A stretch of DNA of 64,000 bases from Neonectria sp. B-13 (taxonomy: Eukaryota; Ascomycota; Sordariomycetes; Hypocreales; Nectriaceae), in assembly GCA_002682825.1 (NCBI GenBank), contig NOKP01000002.1, positions 5,872,309 to 5,936,308 of the forward strand, read 5' to 3'. The notes beneath the pieces were generated by a model. It ran no database searches, was not told the origin of the DNA, and saw nothing but the letters and a program-made list of their open reading frames with translations. The first letter of the stretch is position 1. Each line of letters starts with the position of its first letter. This document shows, one piece after another, positions 17,105-57,850 of the stretch. The translations under genes were made by a program, and so were the position numbers.

Positions 17105-18190
17105 AATGAAAGCATGAGGTTGGCCCCGTTGAGAATTAGAAAAAGGTAGACCCCATTGACAACTTTCCGAGCAGAACCCCTGCCGTCTCTACTAAAATTA
17201 ACTCTTGCGATCGTCAGCCGGGATCGGTGGTCGCTCTATCACCACTCTCGGTAACGGGGCACAAGTCTCTACTGAGAGTCCCAGTGCATGTTCGCAGGAG
17301 ACAGGGTGATGAAGGCCACCTTGGCAGCTGAGTCCATGGTAGTAAGCTGGTGGCTGATGCCGACGGCTAAGAAGGGTCGAGTGCCTCGCAAGCTACCGCC
17401 GTAGCGAACAATGGAGTTAAGAAGTGCCTTGGCTTCTGGGGTGTCATCGTTGAACGCTTGCTATAAGTCGTCAACACTAACAGTCTGCTGAGAGGAAGTG
17501 CCAGGGCGTTTCACAAAGAATGCGCTCCTATTTACAAGTTGCCCTCTCATGAACATATTAAAGACCACGAATCGAAAGTGAGCATGCTGCGCAAATCGGT
17601 CATCATGCCATTTCATCGCGTTCTCGATGTACTTATGGTAATCGATCGATCTGCGGCAAGGCGCAATGAACTCAGCCTCACCGTTCGGGTAGAGGGCGGG
17701 AAAGGCAAGGGATAATAGCGGCTGAGACCGGTTGAACTTATTGATCGGCGTTGAACGGATAACTGGTATCTCCAGGTAAGGATGCAGAAGAACCTGCTCA
17801 GGGATTATGTTCCCAGTCCGCCCGTTTGGCAATGAGGTTTGGCACGGCAGCGTTGTCGTAGTCATCAATGTCGGGAAGATCATCGTCGGCAACTTCATTC
17901 TCGATGTTGCCATCTTGTACGGCTTCGGTGAGGAGCTTGCACATCCACATGCACACGGGCAATGAGCATTTCTTCCGTCTGTGTCAAGGGCGGCAGGAGC
18001 GCAGGCACAACGTCAAAGTCCAGAACCTTCTCGCGAGAGAAGAAGAAAGGCTCAATCTGATCTTCGCCTCAGCACGACGTCGGCAGGTAACGCAGTCTCT
18101 ATAATGAAAGACTATGCCAAACCATTTCCGGTGGCAGCGATGACATGCTCCATAAGGAATTTGTCGCACTGAACGTGCTAAAAGGATCAA
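17105..18190 (-). mobile_element. Helitron relic (Helitron_like_N / Rep-helicase N-terminal fragments)
   Basis: Remains of the N-terminal half of a Helitron Rep/helicase polyprotein, read right to left in broken frames. Seen: a Cys-rich start (CHRCHRKWFG, then CVTCR) near 18150-18070; the LTQTEEMLIARVHV segment near 18000; LAFPALYPNGEAEF near 17700; and HAHFRFVVFNMFMRGQ near 17570, all typical of the Helitron_like_N region. In-frame stops follow at 17461 (TAG), after HWDSQ (TAG) and after PRYREW (TGA TAG). Homology fades near 17105. The helicase domain is absent. Premature TAG/TGA codons where relatives have Gln/Trp-like codons fit C-to-T decay. The element cannot transpose by itself. Confidence 0.75.
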
Positions 18191-22513: not shown

Positions 22514-22546
22514 TATCCCTTTGAGTGGCATAAGCCTCCACCTCCA
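22514..22546 (+). repeat. Left terminal inverted repeat
   Basis: 33 bases matching the reverse complement of 24391-24423 exactly. Confidence 0.9.
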
Positions 22547-22655
22547 TTGCTAGCCCCACATCACCCCTGCTGTAGCCGAGGTACATCCAGATACCTACAG
22601 CATGCTCAGAATCAACCCCGCCTAATTCCTCATACAACTGATTCTCTACATTCTC

Positions 22656-24329
22656 ATGGATTCCCAACAGCCCTATGGCCAGGCTGTCAACGCATATGAT
22701 GACAATAGCTTCATCCGTACAGATAACAGCCGCCGCGAGCAGGCTGCCGATAACACCTGCCGGCCAATAGAACACCCGGTTCCGGGCCGCGGCTACAGCT
22801 TTGAGCCGATGGACCTAGGTCAAGACCGGGCCCCTAGGATAGCAGCTTTGCCCCAGCAGCCGCTGTTGCTTTTCCAGGAATTCTTACCTATGTCTCTAGT
22901 AAAAAGCTGGGCTGGCTACACCAATAGCTGGGTCAGTCACCTCTTGCAGCAGCACGAAGCTGGAAGCTGCAGGTTAAAGCCACAGTCACGGCTACTTGAA
23001 TGGACGCCAATCTCTGCCCCAGAAATCTACATATGGATCGCAATCTTGATATATATGCGAATTCATGGGGAACCTCAGATCAAGGACTATTGGAAGGTTT
23101 ATAAGCCGGGGGAAATAGGCCCTACGCATCCAGTGATCAAATGGATGCCTTTACGCCGCTTCCAGCTAATATCACGGCATCTCCGTCTCTTTGACCATAT
23201 GACTATCGATACAAACCCCGATGTGACCTTCTACGGCCGGACCTTTAGCCGAGTCAACGCCTGGTCTGACCACATACAGCATATGTCCACCGTTTTCTAC
23301 AACCCAGGCACCTCTATCGCTGTAGATGAGTGTATGGTCCGCTTCCTTGGCCGGTCTCGCGAGACTACAACTGTCCCTAACAAACCGATACCAACGGGCT
23401 TCAAAGTGTGGGCTGTGGCCCAACAGGGCTATTTTCTGCGATGGATTTGGCACAGGCCGGGCCGGAAGTTCGGGCCCGTAGGGGTCCGGCCGGCTCGACG
23501 GCGGCAAGGGTTACAGCTACGGCAGAGCTGCCGGCAGTCTTAGATTTAATGCTCTAAAGGCTGTTCCTACGCCTGATAACCTAGTCAGTCAGGAAGACAC
23601 AGTTGTGTTATTTTTCCCTACTAATTTATCTTCGGCTAGGTCAATCAGATCGCGTGGAAAGACAACGCTCTCATGCTGTTCCTATCAACCGTCTTTTCAG
23701 GCGATGAAAGATGCGTCCGCCTACGGAAGAAGCCAACAACAGACCAAATTCAAGCACGGCCAATACAGCTTTTTTTCGCTGGTAGCCAAGTGAAAGAGGT
23801 TTCTATCCCGTCTATCGCTGCTACCTATAACGATGAGATGAACGCCGTAGACCGCGGTGACCAGCTACGAGCCTATTGGAGCCCTGACCGCCGTGTCCGT
23901 AGGGGCAGTTGGAAAGCCCTGGCTTGGGACTTTCTGCTAGAAATAGCCCTTGTGAATAGCTTCCTTTTACAGAAAAGAGGCCAGCCAAAATGGGAGCAGA
24001 AGGACAGTCAAGGAGCGTGGCGGCAGCAGGTTGTCTATAGCCTCATTGAGACCTATGCCTCAGAGACGCAGTCTCGAAAGAGGTTTCGAACGGGAGACGA
24101 ATTTACGCCTGTCTCACAGCACAATCATGTCTATAAAGGAAAATCAGAATGCCTAGCCTGTCAGGGCTATCGGATGGGTCAGACCCGCACGCGCAAAAGG
24201 AAGGCTCCGTTGTCTGCTGTAAGTGGTAATAGCCGGAGGGCGCCGCAGTCACGATGGCGTTGTCAGGAGTGTAATGTAGCTTTATGTAGCGAGGGGGATT
24301 GCTGGTACCTCTGGCACCACCCAAATTAA
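22656..24329 (+). pseudogene. piggyBac-like transposase with internal deletion
   Basis: The N-terminal part (ATG 22656 to about 23480) has the DDE_Tnp_1_7 fold signatures, including LIYMRIHGEPQIKDYW and VDECMVRFLGRS with the first catalytic Asp. After RKFGPVGVRP the frame is lost at about 23490. It resumes at LRFNALKAVPTPDN, crosses an intron (23584-23639), and continues with QIAWKDNALMLFLSTVF and NDEMNAVDRGDQ carrying the last Asp. The end is a Cys/His-rich domain (CLACQG, then CQECNVALC). The segment carrying the middle catalytic Asp (the FxDNLF region in relatives) is missing, so it should be inactive. It could be mobilised in trans if a full copy exists. Confidence 0.8.
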
Positions 24330-24390
24330 TAGAGAACTAATGTACCTTTGATTTGCTATTCTTTGGTTGGCTAGACCCCCCTGTCCGAGG

Positions 24391-24423
24391 TGGAGGTGGA
24401 GGCTTATGCCACTCAAAGGGATA
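24391..24423 (-). repeat. Right terminal inverted repeat
   Basis: 33 bases, reverse complement of 22514-22546. Confidence 0.9.
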
Positions 24424-24556: not shown

Positions 24557-27500
24557 ATGTCCGGCGACGACCTTCACCTCCTTTCCCTTGACGGAGGAGG
24601 CATACGCGGCCTGTCGATGCTGGCGACCCTCCAGGACCTGATGGCAGGGATCGACCCCGACTCCCCACCCAGGCCTTGCGATTGCTTCGACATGATTGGC
24701 GGGACGGGCACGGGTGGACTCGTCGCCATCATGCTGGGGCGGCTGAGGATGACGGTCGGCGAGTGCATCGACGCCTATAAAGCAATCGCAGGTGACATTT
24801 TCGAGGGGGAGCATGACGGCAGCAGTACAGACTCCAGCGGCCAGGTCAGGCTCGGCAACGACGCCCTTGAAGGGGCGATTAAGCAGATGTTGGTAAACAG
24901 CCATCACGATGACGATGAGTTGCTACAAGATCCTGGCGATGCGGCGTGCAGAGTGTCCGTCTCCCCCGTCTGATACCCTGGCTTCTCGGATTGTTGACCG
25001 ATCGAGGCAGCTTCGTATGCGCCGCACGCAAAACGACAGGTGGTATTGCCTGCCTCACGAGCTACCAGCCACCCCACGACGATGCGAACCTATTCCACGA
25101 CACCAAGATATGGGAGGCGTGCCTGGCCACCATGGCCGTGACGACGTTCTTCCACCCCATCGCCCTTGGGCCACGCAGCGAGGAGTTTGGCGACGGAGAC
25201 TTGGAAGCGAACAACCCGGTCTACGCGCTGTGGAGCGAGGCCCGCCATCTTTGGGGAGAGGAGCAGTTGCAGAGCAGGCTCGCGTGCCTCTTGTCCATCG
25301 GGACCGGGGTGGCCATCCCAACGCCCTTGACAGATGGCCCTGCCTACGGCGGTATCCGTAGCTCCCTGATGGCCCTTTCAGCCGCAGCACAGAAGCGGTC
25401 CGTTCAGTTCCTTCGCGATCCGTCGAACCTGGTCGCCAAGGAGCGATATCATCGCTTCAACGTGATAGAAGGGCTCCAGGGTAGCGGACTGGACGAGGTG
25501 AAGAACAACTCGGAAATCGCAGCCGCTACCAGTAGCTACCTCGATTTGCGGGGCGTCTCCAGACGGAGGAAGGCATTTTCGGATAGCCTAGAGCCGAGAC
25601 TGAAGACGGTACAGCTGCAGACATCCTCGGGGAGAAACGAGGATACCCTTTCGTCGGATCCCACATCCGGTCCTTCAGACTATGCTTCAGACGGTGCTTC
25701 AGACTGTCTCCCACTAATCAACGCCTCGCCAGAGCTCAGAACAGCCTCCGTTCAATACGGGCGAGCTTTGGGTATGTTTTCCCAGTGTTATGGTACCTTT
25801 TGCGATGCTATCCGGAGAGCATCCACACTCGAAGACGTCGAGAACGCAGCCACCCTCTTTCAGAATCTGGAGGATTCCACCCCCAACCTTCGAGCGACGA
25901 GAGACACCTTAGTATCAGTAATTGGGCCCGACGACGACCTGAGCGACTTCAAAGCCCAACTGAAGAACGTCGATGACATCCTAGACACCTCCCAGCAGTC
26001 GCAGGCACTGAGAACTCTTCGCCGCTATGTGATAGCCAAGGCGCACCTCGGGCTCAGTTGGATGTTTGTGCTAGACTTGCAGCTACGCCCGCCATCGTGT
26101 CCGTTCTGTCACCACCTCAACCCGAAATACGCACTCGCGGCCACTGTCGTTGACATGGCCAAGGAACGAAGCCGGGCAGGTCAGGCTTGTGCCGCTTGCG
26201 CAATCGTCGAACAAGCGCTGGAATACCTCAGATCAAGCTGGAGTATCGAAGCCGAATACGCCTACGACGATGCGGACCCTAACTTGCACCGATTTTCCCT
26301 CCAAGCAACGGACAACTCGCTCATACTTACATATCCATGCGACGCCGACAGCAACGTCGGCAGCAACAGCAACCGTAGGGGTCCTTTGCGTGACTTGGGA
26401 ATCGGCATGGACTCTCTGGAGCTGTTTATTGCGGAAGACAAGTGGACTTGCAGTTTTCGACTGCCCTGGCTTGGAACCAAGGCTGTCCTCCGCCTCCCGC
26501 GCTTCAGGTCGATGATCAGGCTGGACTTTGGAGCGAAGCCGAGGACATACGCGGAACTGGACACGGCTAGGCTGCAGGAAGCCGACGCCTGCCTCTCGGT
26601 GCGGTTGGAGGCTGCCAAGTCGTGGATCCGCGAGTGCTGCGAAGGTCACTCGGGCTGCAGGAGACAGACGACGGCTCGTCTTCCGAGGCGGGTGGTCGAT
26701 CTACGACGCTTCGCCTCCGACGACAGGCTCTCGCTGCTCGAAACCGACGGCTCGCAGGGAACGTATGCATGTCTGTCGTATTGCTGGGGCCGGGATACGT
26801 CCCTCTGCACCACAAGATCCAACATATCCGCCTTGCAGCAGGACATCCCGTGGCCTCAGTTGCCGCAGACGATCAAGGACGCCGTCCTCGTGGCGTCAGG
26901 CCTCGACATACCGTACCTGTGGGTCGATCGGCTATGCATCGTCCAGGGGGATACGCAGGACTGGAACGAGCAGTTCCCGCGGATGGGAGACATATACGGC
27001 GCTGCCCATGTCACGATAGCGGCCGCAAACAGCTCCAGCGCCGCGGATGGGTTCCTCGCCAGGCGGAGGAGGTTCGAGCCGCCGCTCAAGTTCCAACACG
27101 GCCCTACACGAGATTCGCCCCCCTTGATCGTCTACGGCCGTCGGCCATTCGACCACCTGCCCTTCACCGAACTCAGGACGGACGACGCCAACCCGCTGCG
27201 CGACAGAGCGTGGTGCTTCCAAGAACAACTCGTCTCCGAGCGCGTCCTGAACTTCGGCTACGAGGAGATGCTGTTCGAGTGCCGCCACGGGCACGAATGC
27301 GAATGCGGGTTCCGGCACTCGGCCGAGGCGCCGCTGGGCCTCAAGCAGCGCTTCGACAGCATCCTCGCGGGCTTCTCCGAGGCCTCGCCCTCTGCCAACA
27401 AGCACTGGCAGCTGCTGATGGAGGAGTATTGCCACCGGAAACTGACGAGGGCCTCGGACAAGCTCCCGGCCATTGCGGGCATCGCGCGGCTGTTTCAGAG

Positions 27501-28140
27501 CGTCGTTGGCTTCGAGTATCTGGCTGGCCATTGGAACGATGGCGACCTGATTGCCAGCCTGTGCTGGTACGTCGTAAGCCCGTCTCCGCCGCTCGCTTCG
27601 TCATATCTCGCGCCGTCGTGGTCGTTCGCCTCAGCGACGGCACCCCTCTCTTATTTCCATGTTCCCGAGGGCACGGATGCAGCCGTCATCCTGCCCCAGA
27701 ACCGAGTCGTTGGCGCCAAATGCGTGCCCAAGGACGACGAAATCACCGGGCAGGTCTCCGGAGGGCATCTGGTCGTGAGAGGGATACTCCTCGACGCCGT
27801 CTTCGCCCAGGAGGAGTCGGGCCCGTACCGAGGCGTCACGCGAAACGGAACGACGCTGCGGGTTCTCTACGACGTCGAGCGCCGCCACGACGAACCGGCC
27901 GTCGAGAAGGTCGTTTGCTGGTACATGGGATATCGAGACGACAAGGTCGGGGGCAGATGCCACGGCATCATGGTTCTCACCATCATTTCGGGGAAGCCGC
28001 TCGTCTGTCGGCGCGTGGGCTGGGCAAATGCCATGGAGTATGCAAGCGATGGGAGCGCCTTTGATGTTTTGGGCGACTCCGACGAGTTTCGTTTTCTGCA
28101 AGGATACCACGACTGCATTTGGGGGTTTGCTATTATTTGA
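24557..28140 (+). CDS. Patatin-HET fusion protein; patatin catalytic Ser replaced by Gly
   Basis: Exon 1 is 24557-24954, intron 24955-25010, exon 2 25011-28140: 1175 residues in one frame. Residues ~5-330 are a patatin-like phospholipase domain: LSLDGGGIRG (oxyanion hole), then GGTGTGG where relatives have GTSTGG, so the nucleophile Ser is Gly51, and FGDGDLEANNPV with the dyad Asp near 194. A helical linker follows. A Cys-paired segment (CPFCHHLNP and CAAC, near 496-525) often precedes HET domains. The HET domain starts near 717 (TYACLSYCWG, LPQTIKDAV, YLWVDRLCI, DIYGAAHVTIAAA), with WCFQEQLVSERVL after it. HET domains trigger cell death in heterokaryon incompatibility. Patatins usually occur fused to a nucleotide-binding domain and TPR in fungi; none lies between the two here. 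Very GC-rich compared with its transposon flanks. The start at 24557 is preferred over 24512 because the domain begins at once. Confidence 0.88.
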
Positions 28141-29305
28141 GGACTGGCTTTATCATCTATAACTGTCTGCTGCATCTTCCACATCTATAGGACATGCTAC
28201 GTGTGGAGGAGCTGACCATCGCCTTTCTTAAGGCGAGAGCTGCATGTGGCCTATTCCTCGTCGTGTAGAAAAGGCCACTGACCTACCTGACTGCCCCTAT
28301 TGTTTTTTTGCTCTTACTGCATGATGCAATGCGCCTTCCTTCTCAGCTCATTCGTACCCCGTACGACAGTCGCCCACGACTGGACGCGATCAGCGGTGCT
28401 TATAGTTTCGTGGACGGCAAGACGTCAGGGGCAGTTGGCTCGAGACTTATAGCGCTTGGGAATGCTCGGCCGTCTCCTTTGATATTTTATCTGTCGATAG
28501 AAGGTAGCGCATAAAGTTCTCATTCTCTTATCTTATAACACCGCCTTCCCTTGGAGCTCGACAAGGCGAGGTATACAACTCACGGAGGAACATGGTCGGC
28601 CGCAGACTCCGTGAACCATAGCTCGCCGAAGAATTCGTGCTCATTGGACGAAGGATCGTGAAGAACAGGGTCCTCTTGCTCGCTGGCAACGTTTCGGTCA
28701 ACGTACGATCGCGGGGGAATCGTGTCAGACATTGCGTCTTCGATGGAACGGGAAGTCGAAGGCTTGCGAGCGCAGTTGCGGAACGGTTCGTTATTTACTG
28801 CATGAAGTGGAGGAAAACGATGCGTAATCTTGTAGAATTGTAGCTGAATAGTTGTAGCTAAAAAAGCGTGATCGGAACGGGGTAGGAAGGCAGTGGAAGC
28901 CAAATGGGAATCTTGCGGGAGGGCAAGCGGTTCGTTTTATAGAGGGGACGCTGCTGCCCGAGGACGCGTCTAAGCACTAGGAGCCTCACGCTCTTTAGCT
29001 GTTAACACACTTGGTCACATTAAGAATACTTTACCATTACCAGACCGTGACTTGCATTGCTCACTACAACGTCCTGATCCACTTGATCAAACACCTCACG
29101 CCTCGGACCTGCCCTATTTCCTCAGGTCAGCCCCGACCGCCACAAGTAAGCCCTCTAGAGACCCAGTCGTTTTAGGGTTCTTCAGCTAAGGATAATGTTT
29201 CAACGAGGCTCTATCTAGTTGGAATTTAGGGATAAGTTGTTCACATTAAATACTATTTACAGCTAGTTGTCCAGTGGTTGGCACCCTCAGTTATGTGATC
29301 CGCCA
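28141..29305. other. Intergenic, with repeat copy B
   Basis: Contains the dispersed repeat 28988-29136. A minus-strand open frame at 28580-28903 (107 codons, acidic, no family) is the only long one and is not convincing as a gene. Confidence 0.4.
28988..29136 (+). repeat. Dispersed direct repeat, copy B
   Basis: Second copy of the 18516-18675 repeat, same orientation, about 10.3 kb downstream. It shares the CAGACCGTGAC, GTCCTGATCCAC and CTCACGCCTCGGACCT blocks. Confidence 0.75.
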
Positions 29306-55692: not shown

Positions 55693-56014
55693 TATCGCGG
55701 ATGGAATCAATAGGCGGAGAAGAACTAGTAGGGGATGAGTTACCCGCCTGGATTGTGTCGATGCTGATGTTGTTGTTGAGGTATGAATTGACGCTAGGTG
55801 TTGTTTCTTACGTCTCAGCTTTTCCATCCCTCACATGACAAGGCAGACTGATTGGAATTGCTCAGCCTCACCCAACACTCGGCTGTGCTATCTGCACATT
55901 TTCCACAATCAGGCTCCCTTTTGAAACCCCGCCCTTATTCCTTCCTTCGAGTGTTTTCCTGGCTCGTCCCCACTGCGAAATAATCGTCGCTTAGAATCTT
56001 CACTCACCATCACA
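55693..56014. promoter_or_regulatory. Shared divergent promoter, C2H2 gene and HeLo-like gene
   Basis: 322 bases between divergent ATGs; short enough to share control elements. No defined site recognised. Confidence 0.45.
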
Positions 56015-57850
56015 ATGGCTGAGTTGGCGCTAGGTATCTTTGGCGTCTTGCCTGTCGCCCTGAAGTCGTATCGAATTCTAGCTTCCAAGTTAAAAGCATT
56101 CCGTCACTGTTCCAGCGCCGTCCAGCGAATGCACAAGATACTAAGGGTTCAGCGCCGTGTGTTTGAGAATGAATGCCAGCTTCTGCTTCGCGACTGCCTC
56201 AACGACGATGCAACGGCGCACATAATGATGGCAGACCTGGATCATCAGATTTGGGGAGAAGAAACCCGATATGACGACCTACGAGCCTCGTTGAAAGGCA
56301 ACTACGACGAGTGTGTCGAATTAATCCAAGGTATCCTTGGGACCGTCCGGCAACTTGAGACAAAGCTCGCTTGCTTTGAGATTACAAAGTCGAAACAGAA
56401 GAAGGTTTTGATGCACTGAAAATTGACGTGGTCACCCATCGCTAACGTCAAAACGCAGGATGAGCGTCTGAAGGAGACCTGGAAACGCGTCGGCGATGGC
56501 CTCAAGATGGCCTTCAACCAGACTGACTACGAGGCGGGGCTGGACGACCTTCGAACAGCGAACGGCGACCTGAGAGGGCTGCGAGAGCAGATAACTCTCC
56601 TGCAACAGCCGTGCAATAGGTCGGCGATGAAACGACCGGCTACGAGTTCTTTTGGATGGACTGAGATACGACGAGCCTCGAAAGCCCTCCATGATGCCCT
56701 CATGGGAGCTTGGTCGTGTAGCCAGCCCGGCCACTCTCGACACACGGTCAAGTTGTTCCTGGAGGCTGAAAAAGCAAACGAGGACGTCCAGATGACCATT
56801 GCCATCCTTTGTGAAGGCTACGCCAGAACTTCCACTCAAGCCGACTTCATTGAGTTGCAAGTGAGGTCGAGGCAGATAGAACAGATCCTGTATACACAGC
56901 CCTCAATACCATTGCCAGACCCAGACGAAGCACCACCCTCAAAGCGAATCAAGACAGTAAGATTCAGCGCCCATATTTCAACATCGTGCTACACTCAAAC
57001 AGCGACTGAAGTGCAGCATCGGGTCGCTCAATCGACTTTTGCTTCCCTAGATCTACGTTGCTCAAAAGACATTTGTTCCGAACTAACGGTACAATGTGAC
57101 CGGAAAGCAATCAGTGTGAACCCTCTCTGTCTAGGTCATATCGACGTCAAGACTGAGGAGAGCTATCGACACCTATTCTTCTCTCCTAGCAGAAATATCT
57201 GTCAGGGGAGCTATTCTTCTACCATCAGGGCCAGCAACTCCATACCTATGGACAACATCATCTGCGAAACGTCTAGGGATGCATTCTCGACTGTTGATAA
57301 ACTCAAGATGGCGCGAGCGTTGGTGCCGGCAGTGCTCAAGTTTCACACTACTCCCTGGCTGGGAGAAGCCTGGAGCCTCCAGGACTTGTCATTTTTTCAG
57401 GAGGGTGGCCAAGATCTAGCAATAGCTCTTCGGACACTTCACGTCGGAGTTGAGTTTGACCATGACCACCGCCGAATCGGTACCGACCCAACCACAGAAG
57501 ATATCCCGATGTCCTCGTCCATGAGTAACAGGCTGTGGGAAGTGAGCGAAGACGACCGACTATTCTGTGGCATCGACAACATGGCTCTGTACTGCTTAGG
57601 AGTGGCGCTCCTCCAGATTGATCGCCAAAAGATATTCGAGCCTGGCGATGTTCTCGGTGTACGAAAAGTAGCTAGAGTGAGCTCAACCCTAGGGCCACGC
57701 TACCAGGAGATAACGCAAAAGTGTCTGCGGTGCGACTTTGGCTACGGGGCTGATCTCGGAAAGGCTCAGCTTCAAAGAGCAGTGTATGAATCTGTTGTTG
57801 GGGCGTTGGAGTCGATGATATCAACACTCAGCATTGATGATGACTCGTAA
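56015..57850 (+). CDS. HeLo-like N-terminal domain plus DUF7580-type pseudokinase-like region
   Basis: 593 residues: exon 1 56015-56404, intron 56405-56458, exon 2 56459-57850. The first residues, ELALGIFGVLPVALKSY, look like the membrane-seeking first helix of HeLo-type cell-death domains. Long helices follow (CSSAVQRMHKILRVQ). The C-terminal 250 residues (KMARALVPAVLKFHTTPWLG, WSLQDLSFF, DNMALYCLGVALLQI) match the fungal DUF7580 architecture, which resembles a protein kinase lacking catalytic motifs (no VAIK or DFG seen). Homologues of this layout are linked to fungal programmed cell death; the role here is inferred. Intron and start are clear. Confidence 0.8.

Follow-up and report, generated by a model that had tools for sequence, protein, structure and literature searches.

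Proteins of the HET family are among the most numerous, and the least understood, in filamentous fungi, and the way in which they are triggered when no core of a NOD-like receptor (NLR) is present is an open question. This question is raised by a gene of Neonectria sp. B-13 (Ascomycota; Nectriaceae), which lies on the forward strand of a stretch of 64,000 nucleotides (assembly GCA_002682825.1, contig NOKP01000002.1, positions 5,872,309 to 5,936,308), referred to here as the window, where it occupies positions 24557-28140 and joins a patatin-like region to a HET protein. The window forms part of contig C39 of the 61-Mb assembly G000, the own genome of the comparisons that follow. The reading preferred here, in which confidence is evenly balanced, is that the gene arose when a complete HET gene was joined behind the patatin end of an NLR gene of the PLP-1 type, and that a patatin (a phospholipase-like domain) apparently devoid of catalytic activity senses or restrains, and in this way gates, the death caused by the HET domain. 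The product has the look of a death protein active in self-recognition or immunity.

Domain Architecture

The predicted protein is composed, in order, of a patatin, a linker that looks helical in the structure models, a region with pairs of cysteines, and a HET domain, without an NLR core. The patatin (PF01734) is recognized by Pfam in a match that starts within positions 24557-24970 (expectation value, E, 2.4e-10; profile positions 1-69 of 191), and its second half by homology, with 49-51% identity to the patatins P0005, P0006, and C35. The HET domain (PF06985) is matched over its full profile (1-146), with an E of 4e-29 and 102.3 bits, against a cut-off of 22.5. A preliminary description of this DNA had proposed that the patatin and the HET domain are joined in one protein, which these matches bear out, and that no NACHT, NB-ARC, or repeat sensor is present, which agrees with the Pfam scans, given that neither NB-ARC, NACHT, nor the repeat families (ANK, WD40, and TPR) were matched in the gene at E <= 0.001, nor in the linker and the HET half even at E <= 10. 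None of the 19 NB-ARC matches found in the genome falls in the window, the search for NACHT having covered the gene rather than the whole genome.

The same description emphasized a helical linker and cysteine pairs, both of which are there, with the helices predicted by low-confidence models, although the pairs belong to the usual N-terminal region of HET proteins, and were rejected as a special feature of the linker. The second pair is invariant in all six aligned HET proteins (22-25% identity). The linker itself has no relatives in the own genome and no Pfam family over the cut-off. Two kinships proposed for it were also rejected, one with the BSD domain (E 0.06-0.22, below the cut-off), and the other with the Habc bundles of SNARE proteins, for which a Foldseek search on a poor first model returned none of its 465 matches at E <= 0.001.

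Loss of the Patatin Nucleophile

In the patatin family, a serine is the nucleophile of a Ser-Asp dyad. The window patatin lacks this serine of the GxSxG motif, and reads GTGTGG, with glycine in its place. The nucleophile column is seen in 17 of the 20 aligned rows, with serine in 15 and glycine in two, the window gene and the locus L046. Among the own-genome patatin loci in which the motif is seen (n = 13, mirrored copies excluded), 10 carry serine, two glycine, and one alanine, a count that leaves out L013 (no motif by pattern), C8, C106, and C50:446643 with its mirror. The dyad aspartate of the DG motif is retained (codon 25192-25194, residue 194, in DGDLEANN), with FGDGDLEANN aligned to FVDGALGANN, as is the oxyanion motif DGGG. 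With glycine at the nucleophile position, the window patatin is probably inert.

The preliminary description had presented the protein as two effectors linked directly, and the patatin might still act as a lipase through another residue, with both domains killing jointly. The retention of DGGG and of the dyad aspartate would be consistent with such an arrangement, and NLRs in which two effector domains follow each other at the N-terminus are on record in the portions available of PMC10197012, with double domains in PMC9815663. It is, nevertheless, highly improbable, given the glycine at a position where most of the aligned patatins have serine, and the finding, in the available text on PLP-1, that killing requires patatin activity together with the ATP motif (PMC12881547). 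With no serine left as nucleophile, the version with two effectors is left without support, and the alternative idea of the same description, that the patatin part is the sensor, fits better than a second effector, with sensing a role that the fold may have acquired.

The locus L046 (G000:C52:215202-215573), a distant patatin of the own genome, likewise has GTGTGG for GTSTGG. It was rejected as the source of the glycine in the window gene, as it sits elsewhere in the tree described below, and since this is a different part of the tree, two separate losses of the serine are likelier, with the nucleophile of L046 probably lost independently of the window gene. The locus L042 (G000:C1:3781532-3781915) is a patatin-family match that reads GTATGA, with alanine at the nucleophile position.

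Ancestry of the Patatin

Exon 1 is 55% identical to exon 1 of the own-genome C35 patatin gene, in which the patatin exons are followed, as read by eye, by a P-loop exon (GLGGVGKTQLA). Two database relatives align at 49-50% identity, P0005 of Fusarium, which has a patatin, with AAA and NB-ARC only below the cut-off, and P0006 of Penicillium, which has a patatin and TPR over the cut-off, with NB-ARC below it. In a quick FastTree phylogeny of query-anchored rows (18 of the 20, without L044 and L012, which were too short), the window patatin groups with P0005, P0006, the C35 gene, P0009, and P0010, with a clade support of 0.91, and its branch has a length of 0.68, in comparison with 0.08-0.19 in the five other members of the clade. 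The resemblance to the PLP-1-like layout (patatin-NB-ARC-TPR) lies in this grouping with P0006, P0005, and the C35 gene, at approximately 50% identity, and in the intron position common to C35, whereas the window gene differs in having neither NB-ARC nor TPR, glycine for serine, and a HET protein after the patatin, in a comparison that runs through these relatives and not through the PLP-1 sequence.

Gene Structure and Coding Continuity

One uninterrupted frame had been described for the gene, but its two exons lie in different frames, and a predicted intron splits the patatin domain (Table 1). The intron given by the preliminary description at 24955-25010 nevertheless agrees in position and phase with those of four own-genome patatin genes (L031, L011, L014, and L045, read by eye), and the protein length of 1175 residues also holds, as the spliced coding sequence has 1176 codons with the stop. 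Among the 15 frame-preserving GT-AG pairs, this intron restores the CRV/FVCA junction, at which P0006 has CKVFVCA, and if it were retained, translation would meet a stop at 24971-24973. An alternative intron at 24893-24951 has a more usual donor (GTAAAC), but the conserved junction would be lost. The methionine of exon 1 aligns with that of P0005.

Table 1. Coordinates of the gene, its parts, and the adjacent transposon in the window.
Feature	Position	Strand	Description
piggyBac-like transposon	22514..24423	+	PF13843 in two pieces (second below cut-off, profile middle unmatched); 33-bp perfect terminal inverted repeats
Exon 1	24557..24954	+	Start codon and first patatin half; 132 full codons and 2 bases
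Patatin nucleophile motif GTGTGG	24701..24718	+	Codon 24707-24709 is Gly (residue 51); Ser in relatives
Intron (predicted)	24955..25010	+	56 bp, phase 2, GT-AG; donor GTCCGT, acceptor CAG
Exon 2	25011..28140	+	Rest of the coding sequence, from the second patatin half through the linker and the HET protein with its C-terminal tail to the stop
Second patatin half	25012..25590	+	51% identity to C35 patatin exon 2; below the Pfam Patatin model alone
Linker	25591..26088	+	Ser-rich stretch, then predicted helices (low-confidence models)
HET-protein N-terminal region	26089..26763	+	Two CxxC pairs; alignment of the 3' end to HET paralogues of the own genome
HET domain (PF06985)	26764..27225	+	Pfam full profile
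C-terminal part of HET protein	27226..28137	+	Partly conserved in own-genome HET paralogues

The patatin and HET parts are probably a single protein-coding gene, because exon 2 is free of stops over 1042 codons, whereas 300 dinucleotide shuffles gave no run above 529 in any of the six frames, and its codon use is of the coding type. A model of codon use was trained on 9188 codons, drawn from HET and patatin pieces of the own genome and from five genes of the window. Under this model, the forward frame has z values, relative to base shuffles, of 6.2 in exon 1, 5.9 in the second patatin half, 4.3 in the linker, 5.4 in the Cys-pair region, 5.1 in the HET domain, and 8.9 in the tail. The probability of the 166 stop-free codons of the linker is 0.0018 at its own composition. 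Apart from this question, the gene is rich in G+C, which at third positions ranges from 0.61 to 0.79 by part of the gene, versus 0.51-0.65 in six other window genes. Two separate genes with abutting frames would be suggested by the weak coding signal of the serine-rich stretch that makes up the initial third of the linker (25591-25761; z 2.1), and by an in-frame ATG that stands directly before the Cys-pair region. However, the two parts have a common frame with no stop in exon 2, the helical linker has a coding signal of its own (z 3.7), and the patatin part ends without a stop, and a division into two genes is quite improbable.

The HET Half and Its Relatives

The HET half corresponds to a whole HET protein, with which own-genome paralogues align at 29-37% identity (25% in one tail piece), in alignments that mostly span residues 517-552 to 850-940 of exon 2. 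The HET domain is related to the TIR domain, and a conserved glutamate, as in TIR, has been proposed as functional. At the position four residues before a conserved methionine, which may not be that of the glutamate of the papers, glutamate is present in 13 and glutamine in five of the 18 own-genome HET proteins caught by pattern, the window gene being one of the five. The same position has glutamine, histidine, glutamine, and leucine in P0001-P0004, respectively, and glutamine in L018, which was missed by the pattern. The glutamine was not taken to mean that the HET domain is dead, because glutamine also occurs in other HET proteins.

At least 151 HET matches, a number that counts mirrored copies, are present in the own genome, but no second pair of the patatin-HET type was found, as only the window patatin, out of 24 genome patatin matches (mirrored copies included), has a listed HET match within 3 kb, at 2.2 kb. 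The next nearest patatin is 12.7 kb from a listed HET match, and eight of the 24 are on contigs without one, with 150 HET starts compared out of the matches found. The contigs C20, C50, C72, C105, C114, and others of G000 contain matches in mirrored pairs on one contig, as if folded back, which is probably an assembly artefact, and the copy counts from this assembly are therefore inflated.

Proposed Mechanism

Because the protein has no NB-ARC and no patatin nucleophile, the HET domain would be the remaining part able to kill. In the preferred reading, an NLR gene of the PLP-1 type (patatin-NB-ARC-TPR) would have contributed the N-terminus and a complete HET gene the rest, and the patatin fold, no longer cutting lipids, would serve in binding, recognition, or docking to a membrane or oligomer. 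In the resting state, the patatin fold and the helical linker would keep the HET domain inactive. This state would end when a ligand is bound, which is probably a protein of the host or a membrane partner watched by patatin-NLRs, or a non-self variant of it. Its binding would release or cluster the HET domain and lead to the predicted cell death, bypassing the ATPase step of the NLRs. The logic would be that of HET-B, in which a lectin fold sets the recognition of a non-NLR HET protein.

A number of observations weigh against this proposal. The loss of activity through glycine is deduced from the general Ser-Asp dyad of patatins, and the activity of the HET domain is itself not certain, given the glutamine of the window gene. 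No partner gene was recognized in the neighborhood, and a search for a linked partner similar to SEC-9 returned eight SNARE matches, none of them within 1 Mb, the nearest on the same contig being approximately 1.1 Mb away. The linker is without relatives, one of its reverse-strand frames scores 0.051 in codon use against 0.060 for the forward frame, albeit with nine stops, and the two structure models obtained are both of low confidence and too poor for interpretation. The splice donor, GTCCGT, is atypical in comparison with the GTGAGT, GTAAGT, GTAAGC, and GTGAGC of the four relatives, and splicing may, as a result, be poor. The rate of change at codon positions 1 and 2 relative to position 3 is approximately 0.54 in the window patatin, versus approximately 0.28 in the C35 relative, and this weaker constraint also fits decay.

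This ratio derives from 314 aligned codons, in which changes exclusive to the window gene, where L031 and L011 agree, number 37/188, 44/221, and 40/109 at codon positions 1, 2, and 3, respectively, while changes exclusive to L031, where the window gene and L011 agree, number 24/175, 21/198, and 53/122. Pairwise nonsynonymous divergence (dN) is 0.34 and synonymous divergence (dS) is 1.49, near saturation. By these measures, the window patatin is less constrained than its relative, yet still partly constrained. Together with the patatin halves, which have no stop in 325 codons and 53% identity to the C35 relative, this partial constraint agrees with a domain maintained because of its fold and not because of its chemistry, while leaving room for slow decay.

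Decay is also the core of another explanation, in which a fragment of a patatin-NLR gene came to lie before a working HET gene through chance recombination, and persists as a 5' remnant, with the real product being a HET protein of approximately 692 residues that begins at the ATG at 26062. The sequence past this ATG leads directly into the region in which HET proteins have their Cys pairs, the transposon upstream ends close to the patatin ATG, and the lost serine, long branch, and weaker constraint are all of the kind that a remnant would present, as is the weak splice donor, because of which decay of the 5' half has to be reckoned with. Even so, this explanation is unlikely, considering the stop-free and still similar patatin codons, the excess of position-3 changes over those at positions 1 and 2, and the coding-type codon use of exon 1, the second patatin half, and the linker.

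If the preferred reading of a gating patatin is true, a death enzyme would have been recycled as a sensor, in a fungal counterpart of the integrated decoys of plants, and a HET protein that includes a known NLR effector in inert form would provide a simple handle on the triggering of HET. A broader and rather doubtful extension is that the gene represents a new class of receptor, in which an NLR effector domain stripped of catalysis would serve a HET death protein as its integrated sensor or decoy, detecting whatever touches the patatin-NLRs, or their SNARE partner, without a nucleotide-driven switch.

Comparison with Known Systems

None of the 16 database matches listed (P0001-P0016) contains a patatin and a HET domain together, after the scoring of 7994, 829, and 7997 protein candidates (two of these numbers being lower bounds) and the rescanning of P0012 and P0016 for domains. 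This absence is weak evidence, because the coverage of fungi in the database looks thin. No description of a patatin fused to HET in a protein that lacks an NLR core was found in the portions of the literature available, where the patatin of fungal NLRs is almost invariably accompanied by NB-ARC (Dyrka 2014, PMC4986451).

The BH protein of Podospora het-B, a non-NLR HET protein in which one extra fold, a lectin, sets the specificity of recognition according to the available text of PMC10890737, is similar in that the patatin may have such a role here, although the lectin is C-terminal and the patatin N-terminal. The HNWD NLRs (HET-E, HET-D, and HET-R) have a HET death domain as well, but it is N-terminal and accompanied by NACHT and WD40 in the account available (PMC4986451), whereas that of the window gene is C-terminal, with neither present. 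The hetC of Aspergillus fumigatus provides an example of a patatin outside NLRs, without other NLR parts, although the available sections of its description (PMC11138114) refer to a patatin-like protein with no mention of HET. The NLRs with two effectors (PMC10197012) and the integrated decoys of plant NLRs (PMC5658179), as presented in the excerpts available, also combine a death receptor with an extra fused domain, but both have a nucleotide-binding core, which the window gene lacks.

Genomic Setting

Between the end of the piggyBac-like element and the ATG of the gene, downstream of it, there are 133 bp. The transposase of the element is split over two open reading frames, and longer copies at other places show 70-80% identity, for which reason the element is probably not young. 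A short multicopy repeat is found near 28980-29150, and further downstream are a DNA glycosylase-like gene, a Y-family polymerase, an amidase, and a sugar transporter. The gene thus lies on the margin of a patch of repeats, and not inside the transposon island that had been proposed, of which the upstream element and the downstream repeat stand, but which the ordinary genes beyond them contradict. A further trace of a transposon is present upstream, in the form of a Helitron-like N-terminal match (PF14214, below the cut-off) on the reverse strand at 17461-18012. At 55925-57850, on the forward strand, there are two adjacent open frames, the second of which matches DUF7580 (PF24476, E 2e-8).
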